Below, piece by piece: positions 14,768 through 41,848 of a stretch of DNA of 50,329 bases (position 1 is the first letter of the stretch; each line of letters opens with the position of its first letter). The notes under the pieces were generated by a model, which saw nothing but the letters and a program-made list of their open reading frames with translations, searched no databases and was not told the origin of the DNA. Source of the DNA: Leptolinea sp. (GTDB lineage Bacteria; Chloroflexota; Anaerolineae; Anaerolineales; Anaerolineaceae). The DNA is taken from positions 1 to 50,329 of the forward strand of contig JAAYYW010000038.1 in assembly GCA_012515195.1 (NCBI GenBank), read 5' to 3'. Made by a program: the position numbers and the translations under genes.

Positions 14768-14888
<121 letters not shown>

Positions 14889-14968: not shown

Positions 14969-16204
14969 ATGCTGTCTTCGTTTATGAGTTCAGAAAAATA
15001 CCTGTTCACGTCAGAATCGGTTACCGAAGGACATCCCGATAAGATCTGTGACCAGATCAGCGATGCCGTCTTGGATGCCTGTCTGGCGCAGGATCCCAAA
15101 TCACGTGTTGCCTGCGAAACTGCAACGAAAACCGGTTTTGTCATGCTTCTTGGAGAGATCACCACCAACGCGCATATCGATTTTGATCGCCTCGCGCGCA
15201 AGGTGATCACTGATATTGGTTATGATGACAGTTCAAAAGGGTTTGATGGCAATTCCTGCGGTGTGCAGGTGGCCATCGCGAAACAGTCCAGCGATATTGA
15301 TATGGGTGTTTCCAAAGCGGACGAAGTTAAAAAAGGCCAGGTGACCGAGGACGAGATCGCGAAAATTGGCGCTGGTGACCAGGGTATGATGTTTGGTTTT
15401 GCCTGTAATGAGACACCTACCCTCATGCCCATGCCTATTTATCTGGCTCACAAGCTTACCCGGAAACTTACTGAAGTTCGCAAGAATGACACCTTGCCGT
15501 GGCTTCGCCCTGACGGCAAAAGCCAGGTAACAATCGAATACCGCAAAGGGAAACCCTACCGCGTGGATACCGTTCTCGTCAGTACCCAGCACGATCCGGA
15601 TGTCACTCAGAAAGAGATCCACGATGGTGTCAAAAAACATGTTATTGATCCTGTCTTAAAGGAATCTGGCATTATTGTGGATGAGGATATGAAAGTCTAT
15701 GTAAATCCCACCGGACGCTTTGTTATTGGCGGACCCATGGGCGATGCCGGTGTCACTGGTCGCAAAATCATTGTTGACACTTATGGTGGAACCGGTCGTC
15801 ATGGCGGCGGTGCTTTCTCTGGAAAAGATCCCACAAAAGTTGATCGTTCCGCTGCCTATGCTGCTCGTTGGGTTGCCAAGAACGTTGTTGCCGCTGGTCT
15901 CGCGGAACGCTGTGAGATCCAGGTGGCTTATGCCATTGGTGTGGCACATCCATTGAGCATTAATGTTGAAACCTTCGGAACCGGAACCATTGGTGACGTA
16001 GATATTGCTGATCTGATCAGCAAGCACTTTGACCTTCGCCCCGGAGCCATCATTCGCGATCTGGACCTGCGCCGTCCCATTTACCAGCAGGTTGCAGCTT
16101 ATGGCCACTTTGGCCGTGATGATCTGGATCTAAGTTGGGAGAAGACCACCCGGGCTGAGGTGTTGAAAGCTGCCGCAGCCGGAAAAGTTGGGATTGCCAA
16201 ATAA
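14969..16204 (+). CDS. metK: S-adenosylmethionine synthetase
   Basis: '[25 protein letters not shown]', '[10 protein letters not shown]', '[19 protein letters not shown]'. Confidence 0.97.
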
Positions 16205-25379: not shown

Positions 25380-25470
25380 TTCCGATAATGGCAAATCCGG
25401 TGAAAGCCGGAGACGCAAAACCATGGGTCTACGCTGGATACTTCCAGTATGATCGCCAGGTTGCCGAAGA
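25380..25470 (+). promoter_or_regulatory. c-di-GMP-I (GEMM) riboswitch, copy 1
   Basis: GGCAAATCCGGTGAAAGCCGGAGACGCAAAACCATGGGTCTA...CAGGTTGCCGAAG matches the GEMM-I pattern (GGCAAA / GAAA tetraloop / GACGCAAA / GGGTCTA / GGTTNCCGA). Confidence 0.9.
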
Positions 25471-25524: not shown

Positions 25525-25547
25525 GCCAGAAACGGGAGCCAAACCAA

Positions 25548-25636
25548 ACGACAAGGGCAAACCCGGGAAAACCCGGGGACGCAAAGTTACGGGTCTACAT
25601 TCGAATTGAATATGACCGCCGAACTACCGAAATGGG
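25548..25636 (+). promoter_or_regulatory. c-di-GMP-I (GEMM) riboswitch, copy 2
   Basis: GGGCAAACCCGGGAAAACCCGGGGACGCAAAGTTACGGGTCTACATTCG...CGAACTACCGAAATGGG. Confidence 0.9.
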
Positions 25637-25683: not shown

Positions 25684-25720
25684 CCCTTGTCATGAGAGTA
25701 TGACATGGGTCTTTTTTCTT
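25684..25720 (+). terminator. Terminator-like hairpin spanning the start codon of sortase-like copy 2
   Basis: CCCTTGTCAT-gagagt-ATGACATGGG (one T-T mismatch) followed by TCTTTTTTCTTC; the ATG at 25705 is in the 3' arm. Confidence 0.55.
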
Positions 25721-26358
25721 CTTTCAAACATTTTCTTATATCTATCGTAACAGTGGTGACGCTGTGTATTTCGACTCCAGTACTTGCTTTCCAAACGATA
25801 ATACCGGTTACCGGTACTATCTATAACGAGAGTGTGAAGCCGGGGGCTGTAAACCTTCTCTCTCTAGAAGATTTTACGGAAGCCGTAAAGGACGGCGACG
25901 CCCAGGCTGTTAAAGGATTGTATGCGGAAGAGATCTTTATGATGCGGGTCATCCAGCAGCCTTCCGGTAAGCCCGGTTTTGTATCACCCATTGATGGTAT
26001 TGCCACTCAGTTCGGGATGGCAGCAAACAACAATGTGACCGGTATGCTGGCTCACAATTTCGCTTCTGGTCGTTTTTTCTTTGATCTTTCCATGGATGAC
26101 CGGGTAAGTGTGGTGTATGGCGATGGGAGTATAAAGGAATATAAGGTCACAGCCATCTATAAATTTCAGGCGCTTTCTCCCAAGAGTTCCGCCAGTGATT
26201 TTGTGAATCTGGACACCGGCGAAAAACTCTCCGCGGCTGGTCTTTTTACCCGTATGTATACCGGGAGCCATCATCTGACATTGCAAACCTGTATCCAGGA
26301 AGGCACGGAAGACTCCTGGGGACGGCTCTTTGTAATCGCTGAACCGTTGAACGCCTGA
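25705..26358 (+). CDS. Secreted sortase-like protein (copy 2), downstream of tandem riboswitches
   Basis: Signal peptide; 'GMLAHNFASGRFFF', 'YGDGSIKEYKV', 'HHLTLQTCIQEGTEDSWGRLFVIAEPL'; clear paralog of copy 1. Confidence 0.75.
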   Translation: MGLFSSFKHFLISIVTVVTLCISTPVLAFQTIIPVTGTIYNESVKPGAVNLLSLEDFTEAVKDGDAQAVKGLYAEEIFMMRVIQQPSGKPGFVSPIDGIATQFGMAANNNVTGMLAHNFASGRFFFDLSMDDRVSVVYGDGSIKEYKVTAIYKFQALSPKSSASDFVNLDTGEKLSAAGLFTRMYTGSHHLTLQTCIQEGTEDSWGRLFVIAEPLNA

Positions 26359-26535: not shown

Positions 26536-27939
26536 ATGACCGAATTTGATAACTACCAGTCTCCATTCAGTTGGCGGTATGCCAGCGAAGAGATGCGGCA
26601 GATCTGGAGCGAGACCAACAAACGAAAGCTCTGGCGTCGCATCTGGGTGTCTCTTGCGACAGTTCAGTCAGAGTTTGGGCTGGTCTCTCCCATTCAAGTT
26701 AAAGAGCTTCAATTACACGCAACGGACATTGACGTGGATGCAGCCCTGAAAATTGAGGCTGAGATCCATCATGATCTGATGGCTGAATTGAAAACCTTTG
26801 CCGCGCAATGTCCATTGGCCGGGGGGATAATTCATCTGGGCGCGACATCGATGGATATTGAGGACAATGCCGATGCGATCCGGCTTGCGCAATCACTGGA
26901 TCGTATCATCGCGTCGCTGGGCGGACTCCTGGCAATTCTTGCTGATCGTATTGAAGAAACAGCTGATCTGACTGTTATGGCTTTCACCCATATTCAACCC
27001 GCTGAACCCTCAACGTTCGGTTACCGGCTTTCCATGTATGCGCAAGACTTGCTGGTTGATTGGGAGAATCTTTATGCGGCCAGAGAAAATTTACACGGCA
27101 AAGGTTTTAAAGGAGCAGTGGGAACCGCTGCCGCATACGGTGATCTCTTGGGTGTTGGGAACCTGCGGAGGTTTGAGGAACGGTTGAGTGAAGAACTGGG
27201 GATGGCTTTCTTCCCTGTTGCCACCCAAACATATACCCGCAAACAGGACTACACAATCCTCAGCGCACTGGCTGGTTTGGGAGCTTCGTTGCATAAATTT
27301 GCGTTTGATCTGCGGCTATTGCAAACACCTCCGATTGGAGAGGTTAGCGAATACTTCGCTGAAAAACAGGTGGGATCGTCAGCCATGCCTTTCAAACGCA
27401 ACCCGATCAACGCGGAAAAAGTCGATTCGCTCGCCCGGCTGCTGGCTGTCTATCCACAGGTTGCCTGGCAGAACGCTGCCAATTCCCTGCTGGAACGCAC
27501 ACTGGATGACAGCGCCAACCGGCGCACCATCCTTCCGGAAGCGTTCCTAACCGCGGATGAAATGCTGCGGGTGATGACCCGGTTGGTCGGAAAATTGACT
27601 GTTCACCGTGAAACCATCCGACAAAACCTGGAGATATATGCTCCATTTGCCTGCACCGAACGGGTTATGATGGCCGCGGCCGGAAAGGGGGGGGATCGTC
27701 AAGTACTGCACGAGCGTTTACGGGAGCATGCTCTCGCGTCCTGGGAAGCGGTGCGTGCCGGGCAGCCCAATCCGCTCATTTCTCGCTTGAAGGCGGATGA
27801 TGAAATTCGGCTGTTGGTCAGCGCGGAAGAAATCGACCGACTGGCAGATGTCTCATCGTACACAGGAATAGCGGCAGCCGCATCAATGGAATTGGCTTCG
27901 CATATTCGAGTTTCCATTACAAACCGGTCTGGAGGGTAA
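26536..27939 (+). CDS. purB: Adenylosuccinate lyase
   Basis: 'HLGATSMDIEDNADAIRLAQSL', 'GSSAMPFKRNPINAEKV' signature. Confidence 0.95.
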   Translation: MTEFDNYQSPFSWRYASEEMRQIWSETNKRKLWRRIWVSLATVQSEFGLVSPIQVKELQLHATDIDVDAALKIEAEIHHDLMAELKTFAAQCPLAGGIIHLGATSMDIEDNADAIRLAQSLDRIIASLGGLLAILADRIEETADLTVMAFTHIQPAEPSTFGYRLSMYAQDLLVDWENLYAARENLHGKGFKGAVGTAAAYGDLLGVGNLRRFEERLSEELGMAFFPVATQTYTRKQDYTILSALAGLGASLHKFAFDLRLLQTPPIGEVSEYFAEKQVGSSAMPFKRNPINAEKVDSLARLLAVYPQVAWQNAANSLLERTLDDSANRRTILPEAFLTADEMLRVMTRLVGKLTVHRETIRQNLEIYAPFACTERVMMAAAGKGGDRQVLHERLREHALASWEAVRAGQPNPLISRLKADDEIRLLVSAEEIDRLADVSSYTGIAAAASMELASHIRVSITNRSGG

Positions 27940-28070: not shown

Positions 28071-31007
28071 GTGAACAATCTTCAAAAAACATTTTGCTGT
28101 GTTGTGCGACCAAAAAGAAAAAACGATCCCCGGTCAAACGGTTATCTCGCAGACGTTCGCGCCCTGGGGATCACTGGTGTCGAAGAGATTATCTGCAACG
28201 ATCTTTACTTCATTCGTGGAATTGTGAACCTCAACCAGGTCTCGCGATTGGCGGGGGAATTGCTGCATGACCCGGTCACGCACGAAGTGGAGACCTACAT
28301 AATAAACACATCGGCTGAAAGCCATGAGGTGATCACGCAAATGACCGCTTCCCATGGCATGATCGACGTGGCTCTGCGTCCGGGAGTCACCGATCCTGTC
28401 GCGGACCAGATCGTCCGCGCGGCCGAATTGTTGGGAATTGACGGAATAAACGCTGCCTCAACCGGGCTGCGTTTTTTTGTTAAAGGGGAAGGTGTCTCTG
28501 AAAAGAAGCTCCGCCAACTGGCGGAGCGTTTATTTGCCAACGCGGTCATCCAGAGATATGCGCTGGAGCCAATCACGCCGTCCTTTTCAGAAGCAGCAGA
28601 AGCCAGTGGACAGGTGGAGACCATCCGTGTCAGGGGACTATCTTCGAGCGGATTGCTAAAGACCTCGGGTGATCGGCGGGCCGCACTCAATCTGGATGAG
28701 ATGCTGGCAATACAGTCGTATTGCCTCCGTGAAGGACGTGATCTAACTGATGTCGAATTTGAGATGCTTGCCCAGACGTGGAGTGAACACTGCGTCCACA
28801 AAACATTTAAATCCCGTGTGGTAGTGGAACATGTCAGAAGTGACCGCACATTCCCTGCCGCATATAAACATCTTTTTAACCAAACTATCAGAGCCGCGAC
28901 ACGGGATGTGAACGCCAACTGGGTCCTGTCATCTTTTCGTGAAAATGCCGGAATCATAGAGTTTGATGGTGAACATGAACTGTCCTTCAAGGTCGAGACG
29001 CATAATCACCCCTCCGCCATCGAACCATTTGGTGGAGCAAACACTGGCATTGGAGGTGTGATCCGTGATGTCATTGGCGTGTCGGCAAAACCCATTGCCT
29101 CGACCGATGTCCTCTGTTTTGGCCCGTCGAAAACTCGATTGGACGATCTGCCGACGGGTGTATTGCATCCACGCCGGATCGCGTCGGGGGTGATCGCCGG
29201 TATCGAGGACTACGGGAATAAAATGGGAATTCCAACCGTGAATGGTGCGTTATGGTATGACCCTGGCTATATTGCCAACCCGCTTGTCTTTTGCGGAAGC
29301 GTTGGCATCGCTCCGCGGGGATCAAATCCGCACGGTATTGTGCCGGGAGACCGGGTCATTCTTCTGGGCGGGAAGACGGGACGCGATGGTTTGCGGGGTG
29401 CCACATTTTCATCAATGACCATGGATGCCCAGACCGGCGAGGTTTCCGGGGCATCTGTGCAGATTGGTGCCCCCATTGTGGAGAAAGGACTGGTCGATGT
29501 GTTAATGCCGGCTCGCGACCTGGGTCTTTACCATGCGATCACGGATTGCGGTGCGGGCGGACTGTCATCTGCAGTGGGTGAGATGATCTCAGAGACCGGT
29601 GGGGATATCCAGCTGGCCGATGTTCCATTGAAATACCCGGGGCTTGTCCCATGGGAGATCTGGCTTTCGGAAGCCCAGGAACGCATGGTTATCGCAGTGC
29701 CGCCGGAGAGTGTAGCTGAACTTCAGGGACTTTGCGACCGATTTGAAGTCTCATTGACAGACATAGGCTGCGTTAGCAGCACCGGTCGCACCCGTGTCTA
29801 TTTTCACGATCAAATTGTTCTGGATCTGGATAACCAATTTCTTCATCACGGTCTCCCACAGAGGCAATACACGGCAACAATCCGTCAACCGCGCTATTTA
29901 CCAGGTGAGACCGTGGATGGGTCTCAACTTCCGGAAATCGACTTCGACAAGACGTTGTTGGATTTGCTTTCGCATCCCAACATTGCTTCAAGGGAACCCA
30001 TAATCAGGGTATATGACCATGAAGTGCAGGGGGGAACAGTAGTGAAACCACTGTGCGGAATTCGCCGTGATGGCCCGTCAGATGGATGTGTGATCAAACC
30101 CCAGATGGGAAAGGGACGGCAGGCTTTTGTTTTGTCTAACGGACTAAATCCGGAATATGGAAAAGAAGACCCCTATGAAATGACGCGCCTAGTTATGGAT
30201 GAAGCCATTCGCAACGCGGTGGCCTGTGGGGCCGATCCATCACGAATCGCTGTTTTAGATAACTTCTGTTGGGGTGATCCGACCAATCCTGAGACCATGG
30301 GCGACCTGGTCCAATCCGCACAGGCCTGTTACGACACTGCTGTCCGCTACCAAACGCCGTTTATTTCGGGCAAGGATTCATTTAATAATGAATACCTGGG
30401 AATGGACGGTGCGCGGCATGCCATCCCTCCGACATTATTGATCTCTGCGTTGGGATGGATGCCGGATTGGGAACAGGCGTTGACTATGGACTTAAAACGT
30501 ACCGGGAGTCTCCTTTTCCTGGTCGGTGAATTCAAGCCAGCTTTTGGTGGAAGTCATTACAACTTGATCCATCCTGAAAGAAAGGTGGAAGAAGGTTTGC
30601 CAGAATGTGCCTTGAAAAACCCCGAGATTTACCGCGCTTTTTATTCCACTGTCACACGTGGGATCATATCAGCCTGTCACGACCTGAGCGAAGGCGGTCT
30701 GGGTGTTGCTGCCGCAGAAATGTGCATGGGCGGTAGACGGGGGGCACGGATCGAACTTCCATCTGATATTCACCCGGCACGTGCCCTTTTTGGTGAGACT
30801 TCCGGGTGCCTGCTGGTTGAAGTGAGACCGGCCAATCGAGACCTATTCCTTTCTCTGATGGAATCCATTCCTTGCCGTTTCATTGGGAATGTGCTGGAAG
30901 AACCGGTTTTTAAAACGGTTCTGAAGGGGAATGAAGTTTTTTCAGTAGGTATTCCAGAATTGCTGAGAGCCTGGAAAAATGAATCTGTGGAGGGGGAGAC
31001 GGAATGA
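28071..31007 (+). CDS. purL: Phosphoribosylformylglycinamidine synthase PurL with N-terminal PurS-like region (GTG start)
   Basis: 'TWSEHCVHKTFKSRVV', 'FKVETHNHPSAIEPFGGANTGIGGVIRDV'; N-terminal ~190 aa contains two PurS-like segments. Confidence 0.95.
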   Translation: MNNLQKTFCCVVRPKRKNDPRSNGYLADVRALGITGVEEIICNDLYFIRGIVNLNQVSRLAGELLHDPVTHEVETYIINTSAESHEVITQMTASHGMIDVALRPGVTDPVADQIVRAAELLGIDGINAASTGLRFFVKGEGVSEKKLRQLAERLFANAVIQRYALEPITPSFSEAAEASGQVETIRVRGLSSSGLLKTSGDRRAALNLDEMLAIQSYCLREGRDLTDVEFEMLAQTWSEHCVHKTFKSRVVVEHVRSDRTFPAAYKHLFNQTIRAATRDVNANWVLSSFRENAGIIEFDGEHELSFKVETHNHPSAIEPFGGANTGIGGVIRDVIGVSAKPIASTDVLCFGPSKTRLDDLPTGVLHPRRIASGVIAGIEDYGNKMGIPTVNGALWYDPGYIANPLVFCGSVGIAPRGSNPHGIVPGDRVILLGGKTGRDGLRGATFSSMTMDAQTGEVSGASVQIGAPIVEKGLVDVLMPARDLGLYHAITDCGAGGLSSAVGEMISETGGDIQLADVPLKYPGLVPWEIWLSEAQERMVIAVPPESVAELQGLCDRFEVSLTDIGCVSSTGRTRVYFHDQIVLDLDNQFLHHGLPQRQYTATIRQPRYLPGETVDGSQLPEIDFDKTLLDLLSHPNIASREPIIRVYDHEVQGGTVVKPLCGIRRDGPSDGCVIKPQMGKGRQAFVLSNGLNPEYGKEDPYEMTRLVMDEAIRNAVACGADPSRIAVLDNFCWGDPTNPETMGDLVQSAQACYDTAVRYQTPFISGKDSFNNEYLGMDGARHAIPPTLLISALGWMPDWEQALTMDLKRTGSLLFLVGEFKPAFGGSHYNLIHPERKVEEGLPECALKNPEIYRAFYSTVTRGIISACHDLSEGGLGVAAAEMCMGGRRGARIELPSDIHPARALFGETSGCLLVEVRPANRDLFLSLMESIPCRFIGNVLEEPVFKTVLKGNEVFSVGIPELLRAWKNESVEGETE

Positions 31008-31783
31008 AATCAAAAGCATTGATCCTATTTGCCCCGGGTACCAATCGCGACCAGGATGTGGCCGCGGCATTGCAAATGGCAGGAGCGGAAACGGATATTC
31101 ATCCAGTTCGTAGTCTGTATGAGAAAAAACAGGATTGGTCAACATATCAAATGCTGGTTGTTCCCGGTGGTTTCTCATACGCAGACGCTCTGGGAGCAGG
31201 AAGACTACTGGCTTTGGACTTGACATCATATTTTTCCAACCAGGTGCAGGAATTTTTGGCGGCCGAAAAACCAGTTATCGGCATCTGCAACGGTTTCCAG
31301 GCGTTGGTCAAAGCCGGGATATTACCAGAGACACGTGAACCGGGAGAAACACCCAGGGCAACTTTGACATTCAATCAGAGCAACCATTTTGAATGCCGCT
31401 GGGTAACACTGAAAGCGGTATCCCAAAAATGCATCTGGACCGCTGGTTTATCGGACCTGTTGGATTGTCCCGTCGCACATGGTGAGGGGAACTTCACTGT
31501 CCTGGATGATCAGTACACAAAGGCACTGTTAGAAAACGACCAGGTAGCTCTGGTTTATTCAAAACCGGACGGAAATCCGGCTGATGGCGTTTACCCATTG
31601 AACCCAAATGGATCGATCGGCGATATCGCGGGGGTGTGCAACCCCGCCGGGAATGTGCTTGGGCTGATGCCTCATCCTGAGAATAATATCTGGACACATC
31701 AGGTTCCTGACCGGGCAAACCGGCCTGATCATTTTGGATTGCCATTATTTGTCAATGGGGTGCGGTATGCCAGCCAGCTCTGA
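31004..31783 (+). CDS. purQ: Phosphoribosylformylglycinamidine synthase, glutaminase subunit
   Basis: 'VVPGGFSYADALGAGRLLALD', 'GICNGFQALVKAGILP', 'GLMPHPE'. Confidence 0.95.
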   Translation: MKSKALILFAPGTNRDQDVAAALQMAGAETDIHPVRSLYEKKQDWSTYQMLVVPGGFSYADALGAGRLLALDLTSYFSNQVQEFLAAEKPVIGICNGFQALVKAGILPETREPGETPRATLTFNQSNHFECRWVTLKAVSQKCIWTAGLSDLLDCPVAHGEGNFTVLDDQYTKALLENDQVALVYSKPDGNPADGVYPLNPNGSIGDIAGVCNPAGNVLGLMPHPENNIWTHQVPDRANRPDHFGLPLFVNGVRYASQL

Positions 31784-31796
31784 TCGGGAGAAACGT

Positions 31797-32771
31797 ATGC
31801 AGCCAACCGAGCAATCCATACTTGAATTGATTCCACACGCTTTTGAGAAGAGTGAACTCACGCTGTCTGGTCGCAATTCCGGCAAGGTACGAGATGGGTA
31901 TGTGTTGCCTGATGGAAAACGGCTTCTTGTTACAACAGACCGCCTATCTGCGTTTGACCGCAACTTGGCGGTTATTCCATACAAAGGACAGGTGCTCAAC
32001 CAGCTTGCGGCGTGGTGGTTTGATCTGACCAGGGATATCATCCCCAACCACATCCTGTCTATTCCTGACCCGAACGCGGCGATTGTAACTGATGTCAAGC
32101 CCTTTCCAGTTGAGGTGATCGTCCGCGGATACATAACCGGAGTGACCTCCACTGCTCTGTGGCACCGTTATTCACTGGGGGACCGGGATATTTACGGATA
32201 CCACTTCGGTGAAGGTTTAAAGAAGAACCAGAAGTTGATGAAACCGATCATCACGCCCACAACCAAAGGCGGAATCACCGGGCATGACGAACGTCTGACA
32301 TGTGCCGAAGTTGTAGAAAAGGGTTTGTTGGATGCCGCGAGTTGGGAAAAGGTCCAATCGGCCGCGTTGGCTGTGTTCAACCTGGGACAAAAAATTGCCA
32401 ACCAGGCGGGATTAATTCTGGTGGATACGAAATATGAATTTGGCCAGGCCGAAGATGGTACGATCATGCTCATTGATGAAGTACATACCCCTGATTCATC
32501 CCGATTCTGGACTCTTACATCGTACGCTGAGCGGTTTGCTGCCGGCAAGGAACCTGAGAACTACGACAAAGAATTCATCCGCCGTTACTTCGCGGATAAG
32601 GGTTACCGGGGAGACGGCGAACCACCAGAAGCGGAACTACAACTCTGGGTTCAGGCAAGTCGGCGTTATATCCAGATCTATGAAAAACTGACCGGGAGGA
32701 AATTCGTGCCCGGGGAATATCCGGTCAATCCGCGACTTGAAGCCAATCTGCGCAGGGAGGGATGGTTGTGA
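31797..32771 (+). CDS. purC: SAICAR synthase
   Basis: Listed ORF starts 31734, but MQPTEQSIL at 31797 avoids overlapping purQ. 'GKVRDGYVLPDGKRLLVTTDRLSAFD', 'VEVIVRGYITG', 'LVDTKYEFG'. Confidence 0.95.
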   Translation: MQPTEQSILELIPHAFEKSELTLSGRNSGKVRDGYVLPDGKRLLVTTDRLSAFDRNLAVIPYKGQVLNQLAAWWFDLTRDIIPNHILSIPDPNAAIVTDVKPFPVEVIVRGYITGVTSTALWHRYSLGDRDIYGYHFGEGLKKNQKLMKPIITPTTKGGITGHDERLTCAEVVEKGLLDAASWEKVQSAALAVFNLGQKIANQAGLILVDTKYEFGQAEDGTIMLIDEVHTPDSSRFWTLTSYAERFAAGKEPENYDKEFIRRYFADKGYRGDGEPPEAELQLWVQASRRYIQIYEKLTGRKFVPGEYPVNPRLEANLRREGWL

Positions 32772-33271
32772 TGAAACCACTGCTTGTAATTCTCATGGGG
32801 TCAAATGCCGATAGCGCCCACGCGGAAAAAATCGCCGCGGCGGCCCGACCATTTGGAATTGATGTGGAAATGCGGATAGGTTCTGCCCATAAGACGGCAG
32901 ACCATGTCTTGAGCCTGCTGTTTGCGTATGAAGCGGATCCGCGGCCCAAGGTATATGTCACGATAGCCGGCCGCAGTAATGCCTTGTCCGGTTTTACCGA
33001 TGGTGCGGTGGCCTCACCGGTTATTGCCTGTCCGCCGTATTCCGAGAAGTTTGGCGGTGCGGATGTGTTTTCTTCTTTGAACATGCCTTCCGGTATAGCT
33101 CCGGCGATGGTATTAGAACCGGCTAACGCGGCGCTGCTGGCGGCCAAGATTTTCGCCCTGGCTGATCCCGAAATTCGTAAGACAGTGAAAAAAATCCAGT
33201 CTGCCAATCGTGAGACAATCCTGGCGGATGATGCCAGAGTGTGGTCCGGAAATCATGTGGATATCCCCTGA
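32762..33271 (+). CDS. purE: AIR carboxylase, class II (animal/Treponema-type) PurE
   Basis: 'LMGSNADSAHAEKIAAAARPFGIDVEMRIGSAHKTADHVL', 'VTIAGRSNALSGFTDGAVASPVIACPP' match the human PAICS C-terminal pattern, not the class I AGGAAHLPG pattern. Confidence 0.9.
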   Translation: MVVMKPLLVILMGSNADSAHAEKIAAAARPFGIDVEMRIGSAHKTADHVLSLLFAYEADPRPKVYVTIAGRSNALSGFTDGAVASPVIACPPYSEKFGGADVFSSLNMPSGIAPAMVLEPANAALLAAKIFALADPEIRKTVKKIQSANRETILADDARVWSGNHVDIP

Positions 33272-33292: not shown

Positions 33293-34711
33293 ATGCCTGT
33301 TTTCAACGGTGAATCACCCAAAGAAGAATGTGGAGTACTAGGGATATTTGCTCCAAAAGAGGATGTTTCCCGGTTGGCTTATTTTGGCCTTTCAGCCTTA
33401 CAACATCGCGGGCAGGAGGCGGCCGGTCTGGCTGTTTCCGATGGACATCAATTACGGCTGCACAAAGATATTGGCCTGGTGTCACAGGTATTCGACCCAC
33501 AAACCCTCTCCACTATCAAAGGTGATTTTGCCATCGGGCATACCCGGTATTCAACAACAGGTTCTTCTTCGGCGCGAAATGCGCAGCCTTTCCTAATTGA
33601 TACACGTTACGGACCGATCGCGTTGGCCCACAACGGTAATCTGGTCAATGCGGCTGAATTACGCCAGAAACTGCTTGAACAGGGAGTGGGGCTTTCTTCT
33701 ACTTCGGATACCGAAGTGATGACCATGATGCTGGCCTGTTCAAACGGAGACACCTGGTTCGAGCGCCTGAAAGATGCCATTCAACACTGGGTGGGAGCTT
33801 TTTCACTGGTCATTCTCACCCGCGATCAGGTTTTTGCGGTGCGAGACCCGTGGGGGTTTCATCCGCTAAATGTTGGTATGCTGCCTGGTGGTGGTCATGT
33901 TGCCGCTTCTGAAATTGGCGCGCTCCGCACATTGGGTTGTGAAGCCTATCGGGAGGTGTTTCCGGGGGAGATCATCGCGTTGAGCAATACCGCTTTGACT
34001 GCATTCCAGGCTCTGCCTGTCGCCGAACCCACCGGATATTGCACCTTTGAAGATATCTACTTTTCCCGGCCTGACAACATATTTGACGGCAGGAATGTTC
34101 ATACTATACGGCGTCGGTTGGGGGAGAATCTGGCCAAAGAGTGTCCGGTGGACGCCGATGTAGTGATCCCCGTTCCCGATTCCTCCATCCCGGCGGCTAT
34201 CGGGTATGCCGCTAAGTCCGGAATTCCATATAATGACGGGTTTATAAAGAATCGCTATATTGGGCGGACGTTCATAGAACCCAATGATTCCCTGCGGAAG
34301 CTGGGAATCGCCCTTAAATACAATGTGATCCTTGAAAATATAGTGGGCAAACGGGTGGTAATGGTGGATGATTCGATCGTGAGAGGCAACACTACAGGAC
34401 CATTGGTACAGCTGCTGCGTTCCGCGGGGGTAAAAGAGGTGCATTTGCGTATTACCTGTCCGCCGATCAAACATCCCTGTTTCATGGGGGTTGATATGGG
34501 TACATATGACGAATTGATCGCCCACCGGTACAGTGTGGATGAGATCTGCCGATATGTGGATGGAGACTCACTGGCTTATCTGTCAATGGAAGGCATGATG
34601 GATGCTATTGGACGGAAGAATGGCTATTGCAATGCCTGTTTCACGGGTAAGTATCCTGTTCCGTTGGCAGTGGGAATGACCAAAACCGGATTTGAAGATT
34701 CTATAGGATGA
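33293..34711 (+). CDS. purF: Amidophosphoribosyltransferase
   Basis: 'ECGVLGIFAP', 'LQHRGQEAAGLAVSDG', 'GHTRYSTTGSS', 'VVMVDDSIVRGNTTGPLVQLLR'. Confidence 0.97.
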   Translation: MPVFNGESPKEECGVLGIFAPKEDVSRLAYFGLSALQHRGQEAAGLAVSDGHQLRLHKDIGLVSQVFDPQTLSTIKGDFAIGHTRYSTTGSSSARNAQPFLIDTRYGPIALAHNGNLVNAAELRQKLLEQGVGLSSTSDTEVMTMMLACSNGDTWFERLKDAIQHWVGAFSLVILTRDQVFAVRDPWGFHPLNVGMLPGGGHVAASEIGALRTLGCEAYREVFPGEIIALSNTALTAFQALPVAEPTGYCTFEDIYFSRPDNIFDGRNVHTIRRRLGENLAKECPVDADVVIPVPDSSIPAAIGYAAKSGIPYNDGFIKNRYIGRTFIEPNDSLRKLGIALKYNVILENIVGKRVVMVDDSIVRGNTTGPLVQLLRSAGVKEVHLRITCPPIKHPCFMGVDMGTYDELIAHRYSVDEICRYVDGDSLAYLSMEGMMDAIGRKNGYCNACFTGKYPVPLAVGMTKTGFEDSIG

Positions 34712-34727
34712 GCGGAGGATAGGATAC

Positions 34728-37004
34728 ATGAAAGTAATGATCATTGGATCCGGCGGGCGGGAACATGCCATCGCTTGGAAGGTTAGTCAGTCTCCTCTGC
34801 TCTCCCATTTGTATGTTGCCCCCGGAAATGCAGGGATGGCTGGACTGGGCGATCTGGTCCCGATTGAGTCTGTGGATAGTTATGGAATTGCTGCTTTTGC
34901 CATAAAAGAAAAGATAGACCTGGTTGTCATTGGTCCGGAAGCCGCCCTGGCTGCCGGAGTCAGTGATGCGCTTGCAGCAGCCGGAATTACTGTGTTCGGA
35001 CCGTCCCGCTTTGCCGCGCAGATGGAAACTTCAAAGCGCTTTTCAAAAGAGTTCATGCGGCGGCAGAAAATTCCAACAGCTCAATTTGAGGCTTTTTCTG
35101 ATTATGACAAAGCCTGCCAGTATTTACGATCATTAACCTTTCCGTATGTGATAAAAGCATCAGGGTTGGCTGCCGGGAAAGGGGTGATCCTTCCGGATAC
35201 GCTTGATGAGGGCTTGAAGACTCTGAAAGAGATCATGATTGATGGTGTTTTTGGAACAGCCGGAGATGAGGTGATCATTGAAGAACGTCTTGATGGGGAA
35301 GAAGTCTCCCTGCTGGCTTTTTCTGATGGGACACACCTGTCGTTGATGCCGTCCGCGCAGGACCACAAGCGATTACTGGATAACGATGAAGGACCGAATA
35401 CGGGAGGTATGGGGGCGTATGCCCCGGCTCCGGTACTATTCAAAAGTGATGTAGCTGAAATTGCCCGAACAGTTATGCAACCTGTGTTGGATGGTCTACA
35501 GGCAGATGGACATCCATATACCGGTGTGCTATACGCCGGATTGATGCTGACCAAAGATGGCCCGCGCGTCCTTGAGTTCAACGCACGGTTTGGTGACCCT
35601 GAGACACAGGCTATTCTGCCTCTGTTGGAAAGCGACTTGTTACAGGTATTTCTCGCCTGTACGACCGGAAAACTGGATCAGCTGAAAATTCATTGGGCTG
35701 ATAAATCGTCGGTTTGTGTGGCGGTGGCATCTGCTGGCTATCCTGGCGATCTGCAAACGGGGTATCCAATATCTGGACTTGATATAGAGATCGATGGCGG
35801 AATGGTATTTCATGCCGGAACCCGGATAGCGGGTGAACACATTGTCAATTCAGGCGGGCGTGTGCTGGGGGTAACCTGCTGGGATGTGAATCTACGTAAA
35901 GCCATTGACCGGGTCTACCGGGCAATATCAAATATTTCGTTCGAGGGGATGCAATTCAGGAAAGATATTGGACAAAAAGGGTTGAAACATCTCTGCTGTT
36001 CATATGCTTACCAATCAGCTGGAGTGGATATTGATGCCGGGAATCGGACGGTCGCATTAATGAAGGATGATGTCCGGTCTACCTATAATCCTCGGGTTAT
36101 GGGTGAGATTGGATCCTTTGGCGGACTTTACAACGCCGAAAACCTGGGAGATGAACCTGTTCTGGTGGCATCAACAGACGGTGTGGGTACAAAAGTGGAA
36201 TTGGCCGCGCGACTTGGTAGGTATCGCGGGATTGGTGAGGATATAGTCAACCATTGCATTGACGATATCCTTGTACAGGGTGCGCGCCCGATGTTTTTCC
36301 TGGATTATTTTGCCGCCTCAAAATTGGACCCTGAGATTGTCGCCGAAATTGTTTCTGGAATGACCGATGCATGCAAAGCTGCCGGCTGTGCTCTTTTGGG
36401 GGGTGAAACGGCAGAAATGCCCGGTGTTTACAACAAAAACACTTTTGATGTTGCCGGGACGATCGTTGGGCTGGTGCAGAAGGGCCGTATTCTGCCAAAA
36501 AAGGATGCCATGCAGCCGGATGATATCCTGATCGGATTTGCATCCAGCGGGCCGCATACCAACGGATATTCGCTCATTCGCAAGATATGCGAAGGGGAAG
36601 ACATGCTGGTTTACCGGGAGGAACTCAAATCCAATCTGGCAGATGCGCTGCTTGTCCCCCATCGAAGCTACCTGAACCTGATTGAACCGGTTTTTCCACT
36701 AATCAAAGGATTGAGCCATATAACGGGTGGTGGATTTATAGAGAATATACCCCGTATGCTGCCGGATGGGTTAAGGGCTGAGATTGATCGATCCAGCTGG
36801 CCGCATCCCGCGCTTTATGCGTGGCTGCAGGAAAAAGGCGGAATTGAAGAAGAGGAAATCTACCGCGTTTTCAACATGGGTATTGGTATGGTGGCGGTAA
36901 TTGATGCGGCTGATTGGGGAAAAGTCCAAAAATCTCTGGATGAGCCGGTCTGGAAAATTGGCCGTTTAAAACGCGGAAAGAGATTGGAGGTTTTACTACG
37001 ATGA
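34728..37004 (+). CDS. PurD-PurM fusion: GAR synthetase / AIR synthetase
   Basis: PurD: 'MKVMIIGSGGREHAIAWK', 'NTGGMGAYAPAP', 'EFNARFGDPETQAILP', 'FEGMQFRKDIG'; then PurM: 'YQSAGVDIDAGNRTV', 'STDGVGTKVELA', 'LLGGETAEMPGVY', 'HITGGGFIENIPR' in one uninterrupted frame. Confidence 0.95.
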   Translation: MKVMIIGSGGREHAIAWKVSQSPLLSHLYVAPGNAGMAGLGDLVPIESVDSYGIAAFAIKEKIDLVVIGPEAALAAGVSDALAAAGITVFGPSRFAAQMETSKRFSKEFMRRQKIPTAQFEAFSDYDKACQYLRSLTFPYVIKASGLAAGKGVILPDTLDEGLKTLKEIMIDGVFGTAGDEVIIEERLDGEEVSLLAFSDGTHLSLMPSAQDHKRLLDNDEGPNTGGMGAYAPAPVLFKSDVAEIARTVMQPVLDGLQADGHPYTGVLYAGLMLTKDGPRVLEFNARFGDPETQAILPLLESDLLQVFLACTTGKLDQLKIHWADKSSVCVAVASAGYPGDLQTGYPISGLDIEIDGGMVFHAGTRIAGEHIVNSGGRVLGVTCWDVNLRKAIDRVYRAISNISFEGMQFRKDIGQKGLKHLCCSYAYQSAGVDIDAGNRTVALMKDDVRSTYNPRVMGEIGSFGGLYNAENLGDEPVLVASTDGVGTKVELAARLGRYRGIGEDIVNHCIDDILVQGARPMFFLDYFAASKLDPEIVAEIVSGMTDACKAAGCALLGGETAEMPGVYNKNTFDVAGTIVGLVQKGRILPKKDAMQPDDILIGFASSGPHTNGYSLIRKICEGEDMLVYREELKSNLADALLVPHRSYLNLIEPVFPLIKGLSHITGGGFIENIPRMLPDGLRAEIDRSSWPHPALYAWLQEKGGIEEEEIYRVFNMGIGMVAVIDAADWGKVQKSLDEPVWKIGRLKRGKRLEVLLR

Positions 37005-37606
37005 AAAAAGCCTCACTGGTTATTTTGATCTCTGGAAATGGTTCGAACTTGCAGGTTATTCTGGACGCCTGCCAGTCAGGTCTTTTGAAAGCAGATGTCA
37101 CGGCGGTTATCTCAAATCGGCAGGATGCTTATGGGCTTGTGCGCGCTCGGAACGCGGGTGTTCCGGCCATTTTAAAACACGCCGATAAACGTGTTGACCG
37201 GAAAGAATTTGATTCTGAACTGGCTGAACTGGTGGATGGATATCATCCGGATCTGATCATTCTGGCTGGATGGATGCGGATTTTGACAATTGCGTTTATT
37301 CGACGTTTCCCCCAGCGGATTATCAACCTTCACCCGGCACTGCCTGGAACATTTCCGGGCGTGCATGCCATCGAACGCGCCTTTGATGCGTATCAGCGCG
37401 GAGAGATCACGCAGACGGGTGTGATGGTTCATTATGTTCCTGATGAAGGGGTTGATATCGGTCCGGTTATTACCCGGCAAGTGGTGCCGATATACCCGTC
37501 GGATACAATTGATGATTTGGAAGAGCGGGTTCATGTTTGTGAGCATGAACTATTGATAGAAACAATACAAAAACTGGTCGGTCAAATGGAGGAAGGTCAT
37601 GCCTAA
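37001..37606 (+). CDS. purN: GAR formyltransferase
   Basis: 'VILISGNGSNLQVILDAC', 'IINLHPALPGTFPGVHAIERAFDA'. Confidence 0.95.
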   Translation: MKKASLVILISGNGSNLQVILDACQSGLLKADVTAVISNRQDAYGLVRARNAGVPAILKHADKRVDRKEFDSELAELVDGYHPDLIILAGWMRILTIAFIRRFPQRIINLHPALPGTFPGVHAIERAFDAYQRGEITQTGVMVHYVPDEGVDIGPVITRQVVPIYPSDTIDDLEERVHVCEHELLIETIQKLVGQMEEGHA

Positions 37607-39098
37607 AGCATTGCTCTCGGTATACGACAAAACAGGGCTGGTGGAATTTGCCAGTGGATTGCTAAATTCCGGATGGGAGCTGCTGGCTTCCGGTGGTACG
37701 GCGAAATTGCTTTCGGAGAATGGGTTGAAAGTCACCGAAGTGGCGCAATACACCGGCTCACCGGAGATCCTTGGTGGGCGGGTGAAGACGCTTCACCCGG
37801 CTATTCATGGGGGGTTGCTTTCCCGTGATACAGAGGAAGACCGTGCCCAGTTACATTCACTGGGTTGGGGCGCGATTGATCTGGTAGCCGTGAACTTGTA
37901 TCCGTTTGAAGCCACTGTCTCCAGACCTGATGTAACCATGGCTGAGGCTATTGAACAGATCGACATTGGAGGTGTGGCTCTCATCCGTGCGGCGGCTAAG
38001 AACCATGCCCGGGTTACGCTTGTTTGTGATCCCGCGGATTACGGAAAAGTGCTTGATTCTATAAGTTCCGGTTCTTTGGATGAAGCACAGCGCCGGGTAT
38101 TGGCTTTAAAAGGATTTCGCCTGACAGCCCATTATGACCGGGCGATCAGCCGGTACCTTGACAGCGGAGAAGGTGAATTATTGGAACTCTATCCGATTCA
38201 ATCGCTGCGTTATGGCGAGAACCCGCATCAGGCTGCGCTACTGCTTGGATACCATCCCGGCGACACACCCATGGGTGGAAAAGTGTTGCAGGGCAAGGAA
38301 TTATCTTATAACAATTTGCTTGACCTGGATTCTGCCTGGCGGACAGTTGTCAGTTATAAAAAAGGCAGCATTGTTATTGTGAAACATTTAACACCATGCG
38401 GAGTCGCGTCCAATGAAGACCAGGCAGCTGCGTATAAAGCGGCACTGGAATGTGATCCGGTCTCAGCATTTGGAGGTATTATCGCGTCCAACCGTCTTTT
38501 GGAAGCGGCAACTGCGGAAGCCATTAGTGATCTGTTTGTAGAATGTATTATCGCGCCTGGTTTTGCGCCAGCCTCGCTGGAAATTCTTTCGAAGAAAAAG
38601 AACGTGCGCCTTGTGGAAATGCCTGACCTGGATATGGAACCGAAAGTGGAGTACCGGTCAATAGTCCGTGGACTTCTGCGCCAACAAGTAGACCTGGGCG
38701 ATCCGGATCAATCCGGATGGAAAGCAGTGACTGAGAAATGCCCCTCTGAGCAGGAGATGGCTGCCATGAAATTTGCCTGGACTGCCTGTCAGCACGTCAA
38801 GTCGAATTCCATCGTGTTCGCCCGGGGTGAAGCAACTGTGGGAATAGGCGGCGGACAGCCAAACCGGGTGGATTGTGTGCGTATAGCCGCCGGGCATGCC
38901 GGCGAAAAGGCCAAAGGCGCCGTAATGGCATCGGATGCGTTTTTCCCGTTTCCAGATTCGGTTGAGGAAGCTTCACGGTGTGGTATAACAGCCATAGTTC
39001 AACCCGGGGGTTCAGTGCGAGATCAAGAGTCGATCGATCTGTGCAACCGGTTGGGCATTAGCATGGTGTTCACCGGTTACCGGCATTTTCGACACTGA
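37599..39098 (+). CDS. purH: Bifunctional AICAR transformylase / IMP cyclohydrolase
   Basis: 'ALLSVYDKTGLVEFA', 'GGRVKTLHPAIHGGLL', 'LRYGENPHQAAL', 'SNSIVFARGEATVGIGGGQPNRVD'. Confidence 0.96.
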   Translation: MPKALLSVYDKTGLVEFASGLLNSGWELLASGGTAKLLSENGLKVTEVAQYTGSPEILGGRVKTLHPAIHGGLLSRDTEEDRAQLHSLGWGAIDLVAVNLYPFEATVSRPDVTMAEAIEQIDIGGVALIRAAAKNHARVTLVCDPADYGKVLDSISSGSLDEAQRRVLALKGFRLTAHYDRAISRYLDSGEGELLELYPIQSLRYGENPHQAALLLGYHPGDTPMGGKVLQGKELSYNNLLDLDSAWRTVVSYKKGSIVIVKHLTPCGVASNEDQAAAYKAALECDPVSAFGGIIASNRLLEAATAEAISDLFVECIIAPGFAPASLEILSKKKNVRLVEMPDLDMEPKVEYRSIVRGLLRQQVDLGDPDQSGWKAVTEKCPSEQEMAAMKFAWTACQHVKSNSIVFARGEATVGIGGGQPNRVDCVRIAAGHAGEKAKGAVMASDAFFPFPDSVEEASRCGITAIVQPGGSVRDQESIDLCNRLGISMVFTGYRHFRH

Positions 39099-39104
39099 GG
39101 ACTA

Positions 39105-40589
39105 ATGATGACTGTAAACAAGGCGATATTTGATCAGATTGAGTCATTGACATTTGATGATGTATTAATTGAACCCGGGTATAGTGAGGTTCTTCCCAGT
39201 GAGGTGGATGTTCATGCCCGATTAACCCGCGATATTCGCCTGAACATTCCCTTATTGTCTGCGGCCATGGATACAGTAACGGAAGCACGTCTGGCTATTG
39301 CCCTGGCACGAGAGGGAGGAATTGGTATCATTCACCGCAATTTCCCTCCAGGTGATCAGGCTCGCGAAGTCGAAACGGTAAAAAGATCTGAATCCGGTAT
39401 GATCCTGGATCCCATTACCCTTCCGCCAACAGCCACACTGGCCGAAGCCGAAGAGATCATGGCCCGTTTTCACATCAGCGGGTTGCCGGTGGTTGATCTG
39501 AAGACCAACAGGCTGGTGGGTATACTGACAAATAGGGACACTCGTTTCACTGAGCCTGAAGACATGACCCGCCCTGTCACGGAATTTATGACATCCGAGC
39601 ATTTGATCGTGGCCAAGATTGGAACGACACTTGACCAGGCCAAGGATATCTTGAAACAGCACCGCATTGAAAAACTACCACTGGTTGATGATGAAGGTCA
39701 CCTTCAGGGATTGATCACAGTAAAGGATATTCAAAAACGATTGCAATACCCCAACGCAGCGAAAGACAGTCGGGGACGTCTGCTTGTTGGCGCGGCAGTA
39801 GGGGTTGGCCCTGATGTGGAGGATCGTATTGAGCGTCTGGTCGAAAAAGGGGTGGATATTGTTGTTATTGATACCGCCCATGGACACACAGCTGGTGTGA
39901 TAAAGACGATTAAGCGTATAAAGGCGATCAAACCAGACCTTCCGGTCATTGCCGGTAATGTGGTCACGGAAGAGGGAACCCATGCTCTCGTAGAGGCTGG
40001 CGCTGATGCCATAAAAGTTGGAGTGGGCGCGGGTTCCATCTGCACAACCCGGATCATTTCCGGGACGGGTATGCCCCAGTTGACGGCTATTTACCGTTGT
40101 GCCAAAGAAGCTCGCTCCAAAGGCATTCCGGTTATTGCTGATGGTGGAATTAAGTATAGTGGAGACATTGTGAAAGCCATTGTCGCCGGTGCGGATACTG
40201 TCATGCTGGGCAGTCTACTGGCCGGTTTGCAAGAGGCACCCGGTGAAGAGATCTTGTACAGCGGCCGCCAATTCAAATCATACCGGGGCATGGGGTCTAT
40301 GGGAGCTTTGCAGGGATATGGTAAAGACCGATATGGGAGCCAGGGGAATGGCAAGCTAGTCCCCGAGGGAGTCGAAGGAATGGTACCTTTCAAAGGGCCG
40401 CTGGGCGAGTTCATCTACCAACTTGTTGGTGGACTGCGCTCCGGTATGGGTTACGCGGGGGCGTCCACTCTTAATGAGCTTCAAACAAAAACCCGTTTGG
40501 TACGCATAACCGGCGCGGGGTTAATTGAGAGCCATCCGCATGATATTACCATTACACGTGAGGCGCCAAATTATCAACGTGGTGATTAA
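39105..40589 (+). CDS. guaB: IMP dehydrogenase
   Basis: '[21 protein letters not shown]', two CBS domains, '[25 protein letters not shown]'. Confidence 0.97.
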
Positions 40590-40960: not shown

Positions 40961-41848
40961 ATGCCAATTCTGCTTCAATTGCCTAAAAGTGTTAAAGTGA
41001 TCCTGGGAATGGGAGTTTTATTGTTATCCATTCTTATAGGATATTTTGACTGGAAATCCGGGTCTGATTTCTCATTCTCTCTTTTTTATATTATTCCTCC
41101 CTCCATTGCTGCATGGTTCCTGGCTCGGAATTACACAATCTTCGTTTCGGTTTTCAATATCATTATCTGGCAATGGGTTGACATCGTATCCAATCGGATA
41201 CCACAAAGCCTGCCAGAGAACATCTGGAATCTGGCATCCCGATTGGTTATTCTTGTTTTTGTTGGTTTACTTCTCCACTCACTGCGTAACGCTCTGGAGA
41301 GAGAAAAGGTTCTTTCCAGTAAAGACGACCTTACGAATGTTTTGAATGCCCGGTCCTTTGGAAATCGGCTGGATGATGAATTAGCCCGCGCGATTCGTTA
41401 TAGCCGGCCGTTGACACTGGCATTTCTTGATATTGATGATTTCAAATTGGTAAATGATACATATGGTCACAAGGTTGGGGATCAAGTTTTACAGGAGATG
41501 GCTGATGTTATGTCGCAATCAATACGGAAAAATGATGCCATTGGTCGACTCGGTGGTGATGAATTCTCCATTATTTTGATCGAAACGGGTTTGGCTGAAG
41601 CCAGATCAATCATAACCAGTTTGCAAAAAACGATAAACGATGTTATCAAGGCAAACAATTGGCCGATTTCCATTAGCATCGGGGTGATCTCCTGTGTGAT
41701 GATGTATTGTGATTCAGACAGGCTTATCCATTTTGCTGACCAGATTATGTACTCTGTAAAGGAAGATTCAAAGGGTTCTGTAAAATATGCTTCTCTGGTT
41801 AATGTGAATTCGGATACCAACTATTGGGAGGAGGAAAACCATGTTTAA
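40961..41848 (+). CDS. Membrane diguanylate cyclase (GGDEF) with I-site
   Basis: N-terminal TM helices; 'AFLDIDDFKLVNDTYGHKVGDQVL', 'RKNDAIGRLGGDEFSIIL' (RxxD five residues before GGDEF). Confidence 0.92.
   Translation: MPILLQLPKSVKVILGMGVLLLSILIGYFDWKSGSDFSFSLFYIIPPSIAAWFLARNYTIFVSVFNIIIWQWVDIVSNRIPQSLPENIWNLASRLVILVFVGLLLHSLRNALEREKVLSSKDDLTNVLNARSFGNRLDDELARAIRYSRPLTLAFLDIDDFKLVNDTYGHKVGDQVLQEMADVMSQSIRKNDAIGRLGGDEFSIILIETGLAEARSIITSLQKTINDVIKANNWPISISIGVISCVMMYCDSDRLIHFADQIMYSVKEDSKGSVKYASLVNVNSDTNYWEEENHV

Follow-up and report, generated by a model that had tools for sequence, protein, structure and literature searches.

PurE proteins of the AIRC family act at the same step of purine synthesis in two classes. 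The class I enzyme of E. coli is a mutase that carries the motif GGAAHLPG and works with PurK (N5-CAIR synthetase) and ATP, whereas class II enzymes do not need PurK. A bacterial example of the latter is the stand-alone PurE of T. denticola (PDB 3rg8), an AIR carboxylase (Tranchimand et al. 2011, as cited in PMC9376930), and PMC9376930 reports direct carboxylation with CO2 both for this enzyme and for PAICS. In animal PAICS (human 2h31/6yb8, Bombyx 4ja0) the carboxylase, which works in one step with CO2, is encoded after SAICAR synthetase within a single fused, bifunctional protein. Archaeoglobus also has a class II PurE without PurK, for which transfer from a eukaryote has been proposed (PMC3261824). 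Class I PurE without PurK has in turn been proposed to operate on non-enzymatic N5-CAIR or high bicarbonate in methanogens and other archaea (PMC3261824).

Here, we analysed a purine cluster from a member of the Anaerolineaceae (Chloroflexota) in a stretch of 50,329 nucleotides, hereafter the window. Its PurE shares the stand-alone class II form of the T. denticola enzyme, although the two come from different phyla. With PAICS it shares class II catalytic residues, a putative one-step carboxylation and the order of the two coding regions, but here the genes are separate and the SAICAR synthetase is of another subfamily. It lies across a 100/100 branch from E. coli PurE, and in a different class II group from Archaeoglobus PurE, which groups with Omnitrophota, Caldifarciminota and Bathyarchaeota.

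Results and discussion

One cluster carries purB, purSL, purQ, purC, purE, purF, purDM, purN and purH (Table 1), and encodes every step from PRPP to IMP besides the one assigned to PurE. The initial annotation had described the purC and purE ORFs, the PurE motifs SAHK, AGRSN and PVIACPP, a 10-nt overlap between the two genes and the lack of purK in the cluster. The ORFs and motifs are present as described, and a search of the ORF listing for purK in the purine cluster found none. The 10-nt overlap holds if purE starts at the upstream ATG; a second in-frame ATG would reduce it to 1 nt (TGATG). This second start lies ~10 nt after a GGAGG, a better spacing than the ~1 nt of the first, and gives a conserved MKPL, which is also how T. 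denticola PurE and the proteins of loci L005–L007 begin; the true overlap may therefore be 1 nt.

Table 1. Features of the window, with supporting matches and remarks
Feature	Position	Strand	Remarks
SAM riboswitch	14770..14888		upstream of ORF 14969..16204
c-di-GMP-I riboswitch aptamer	25380..25468		tandem pair, first
c-di-GMP-I riboswitch aptamer	25547..25632		tandem pair, second; upstream of ORF 25705..26358
purB, adenylosuccinate lyase	26536..27939	+	TIGR00928 374 bits
purSL, PurS-like N-terminus fused to PurL (FGAM synthase)	28071..31007	+	TIGR01736 553 bits
purQ, FGAM synthase glutaminase subunit	31004..31783	+	TIGR01737 198 bits
purC, SAICAR synthetase (NF009251/PRK12607 subfamily)	31797..32771	+	324 aa
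purE, class II AIR carboxylase	32762..33271	+	169 aa from ATG 32762; 166 aa from alternative ATG 32771
purF, amidophosphoribosyltransferase	33293..34711	+	TIGR01134 484 bits
purDM, purD-purM fusion (GAR synthetase + AIR synthetase)	34728..37004	+	TIGR00877 530 bits on 1-418; TIGR00878 360 bits on 427-748
purN, GAR formyltransferase	37001..37606	+	TIGR00639 214 bits; overlaps purDM by 4 nt
purH, AICAR formyltransferase / IMP cyclohydrolase	37599..39098	+	TIGR00355 611 bits
guaB, IMP dehydrogenase	39105..40589	+	TIGR01302 613 bits
GGDEF protein	40961..41848		

Two fusions mark the rest of the cluster. The N-terminal extension of PurL matches PurS (aa 98–166), and aa 92–969 align with residues 77–993 of the large PurL 1t3t, with purQ still a separate gene; this putative PurS–PurL fusion with a separate purQ is intermediate between FGAM synthases of the small and the large type. 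The PurD–PurM fusion followed by an overlapping purN repeats the domain order of animal GART, and is a closer eukaryote-like arrangement than purC–purE. PurD and PurM are fused in L003–L007 and in 13 other loci, and separate in 39; being conserved, the fusion is not a sequencing error. Its PurM half scores 319 bits against bacterial PurM and 250 bits against the human protein, so purDM looks like an independent fusion. Outside the cluster, the window holds tandem c-di-GMP-I aptamers upstream of an ORF with a weak sortase match, a GGDEF protein and a SAM riboswitch.

PurE reads MKPLLVILMGSNAD...RIGSAHKTAD...TIAGRSNALSGF...SPVIACPPYSEKFGGADVFSSL, with SAHK at residues 41–44, AGRSN at 69–73 and PVIACPP at 86–92. 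SAHK and AGRSN align with 3rg8 and 2h31, and the protein thus carries the class II active-site signature. The AIRC family model PF00731 matches at 125.8 bits (cut-off 30), and TIGR01162, the NCBIfam model named as N5-CAIR mutase, at 128.2 bits, below its cut-off of 149.6. The best match among solved structures is T. denticola 3rg8 (204.6 bits, 62% identity across almost its entire length); the PAICS structures score 109 bits (human) and 104 bits (Bombyx), and class I structures at most 67 bits. A search with E. coli PurE ranked the classes the other way round, and 3rg8 scored only 46 bits. A class I identity was rejected on the presence of AGRSN in place of GGAAHLPG, the lack of purK and the TIGR01162 score.

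The published model of the human AIR carboxylase active site comprises 18 residues (PMC9376930), of which 14 are kept in the window's PurE. Human Met272, Gly273, Ser274, Asp277, Ser301, Ala302 and His303 correspond to M12, G13, S14, D17, S41, A42 and H43, and Lys304, Ala329, Gly330, Arg331, Ser332, Asn333 and Leu335 to K44, A69, G70, R71, S72, N73 and L75. The four changes are T275N, S276A, V328I and G334A; the first two give Asn15 and Ala16, the latter at the position of a phosphate contact (Ser276). Elsewhere in the class II clade, four PurE sequences (L027, L080, L121, L123) have AGxSN with SAHR in place of SAHK, and SAHK is therefore not strictly diagnostic of class II.

A careful IQ-TREE search on 51 sequences gave our main tree, in which the 100/100 branch separates class I from class II PurE. 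The window's PurE grouped with Leptolinea and Ornatilinea (99/91 and 99/90); a 100/95 group unites it with T. denticola and the Anaerolineales group. Placement with E. coli-type class I was rejected (p-AU 2e-46). An AU test that put class I and the window's PurE together on one side returned p 0.059, but this asks only if the protein might branch first within class II, and the E. coli-type test was used instead for that reason. Quick-tree AU tests on 126 sequences had been set aside, as the constrained trees scored above the free tree. The initial annotation had called PurE class II rather than class I and named phylogeny as one check; the identity to the T. denticola enzyme and the tree agree with that call, with the window inside class II and not within class I.

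Among the Chloroflexota sequences, T. denticola PurE branches as sister of the Anaerolineales group, and the gene may have come from bacteria of this kind. The same 51-sequence tree lent no support to a eukaryotic origin of the Archaeoglobi enzyme: it rejected a clade of Archaeoglobi plus metazoa (p 0.0036), and the Archaeoglobi sequences (L070, L073) grouped with other prokaryotes. The animal PAICS carboxylase domain, on a long branch, paired with Chloroflexota family f28 as its sister (92/79), a placement that is not significant.

The genome to which the window belongs (3.33 Mb, 438 contigs, 90% completeness) has a single PurE, the only PF00731 match genome-wide (125.7 bits). The genome-wide search for purK proposed in the initial annotation returned nothing above the TIGR01161 cut-off of 318.4 bits in this 90%-complete assembly, the only match being 29 bits inside a 1076-aa frame that, judged by its length, is probably carB. 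Because the assembly is incomplete and fragmented, a purK could have been missed, or be too divergent for the model, and for this question the genomes of relatives matter. Seven named relatives, including the complete chromosome of Leptolinea sp. HRD-7 from the same genus (L003), gave no purK match above 42.4 bits. None was found in 61 genomes of the family (best 41.5 bits), 18 of which carry class II PurE and none class I; same-genus genomes of 99% completeness also lack purK, and positive controls matched in 14/14 genomes. We thus regard an overlooked purK as extremely improbable.

Within the same family, ~39/61 genomes have neither PurE nor a strong PurL, near-complete ones (G104, G176) included, which suggests that de novo purine synthesis has been widely lost. 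Three genomes (G317, G329, G352) have PurL-like frames of ~530–550 aa and no PurE.

Across 301 Chloroflexota genomes, PurE scores against a class II alignment were bimodal, with 31 at 195 bits or more and the others at ~103 or lower. We counted purK in 107 genomes: 103 exceeded the cut-off, and four matches were fragmentary or fell below it. purK accompanied class II PurE in 0/31 genomes, compared with 105/225 for class I (Fisher p 2e-8, treating related genomes as independent). Four families (f2, f25, f28, f58) contain both classes, and a hand count there gave purK in 0/24 class II and 12/13 class I genomes. About 120 of the 225 class I genomes nevertheless lack a detected purK, and since such genomes are common, absence of purK alone is weak evidence and not diagnostic of class II. 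Class II PurE occurred in ten Chloroflexota families and scattered other phyla. The enzyme type is already known, and our literature search turned up neither a study of the class II enzyme from Chloroflexi nor biochemical data for any Chloroflexota PurE; what is added here is its wide distribution in the phylum, never in one genome with PurK.

With every other step from PRPP to IMP encoded in the cluster and purK absent, the most likely role of PurE is to convert AIR and CO2 to CAIR. We put at about 95% the probability that it is a class II AIR carboxylase with no use for PurK, N5-CAIR or ATP at this step, as sequence, tree, genome search and phylum survey all suggest; the PurK-independent route of the initial annotation is likewise supported. 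purK is the sole gene that seems to be missing, and leaves no gap since class II PurE does not need it. By analogy with T. denticola PurE and PAICS, the enzyme would bind CO2 together with the AIR that PurDM produces and carboxylate it directly at C4; His43 would serve as base, the intermediate would be of the isoCAIR type, and the CAIR would be handed to PurC, encoded immediately upstream, for conversion to SAICAR. The enzyme might instead be an N5-CAIR mutase living on non-enzymatic N5-CAIR or high bicarbonate, like the archaea with class I and no PurK, a lifestyle that the many class I Chloroflexota genomes without purK make possible in the phylum. Its class II motifs and active site, its 100/100 placement and a closest solved relative that is an assayed AIR carboxylase speak against this, and we consider it highly unlikely.

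The initial annotation had also called purC and purE a PAICS-like pair. At its strongest, that comparison would make PurC and PurE a stable, channelled complex homologous to animal PAICS, with the fused enzyme as its descendant, and the overlapping genes do stand in PAICS domain order; in most of the class II Chloroflexota loci that we inspected, purC likewise precedes and adjoins purE. PurC, however, matches NF009251 at 400 bits and scores 140 bits against SAICAR synthetase 1a48, which we take to be from yeast, 134 bits against stand-alone enzymes of ~300 aa and 18.5 bits against Bombyx PAICS 4ja0, with no match to human PAICS 2h31 in the structure search. Judged by these scores it is a member of the yeast-type subfamily, outside that of PAICS. 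Membership of PAICS was rejected on this difference and because purC and purE are separate ORFs in different frames. The same adjacency also occurs with class I: in L087, from the same taxonomic order as the window, purC is next to a class I purE followed by purK, and in L088 purC is upstream of a class I purE, with purK just downstream in that genome. The likeness to PAICS thus comes down to gene order, and the homologous complex is very unlikely.

A CO2-rich, anaerobic niche was rejected as the general cause of class II, since 27/31 class II genomes encode a haem-copper oxidase (PF00115). A search for this oxidase in the window's own genome found none, and an anaerobic life at high CO2 may suit this bacterium, but not the class II group. 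A broader scenario would make class II an old prokaryotic lineage centred on Chloroflexota that repeatedly replaced the PurK/class I pair, also in oxidase-bearing lineages, gave Treponema its enzyme and may have given rise to the carboxylase domain of animal PAICS; we offer it as speculation that is rather unlikely to hold in full.

Conclusion

Accounts of class II PurE usually present it as an enzyme of animals, with a few exceptions among bacteria and archaea; our survey shows a wider spread. Annotation is affected, as the NCBI model names the family a mutase and scores the window's PurE under its cut-off. The strict exclusion of purK with class II PurE in Chloroflexota means that synthesis through PurK is not the norm in these lineages, and families with both classes provide natural contrasts for testing what drives the switch.
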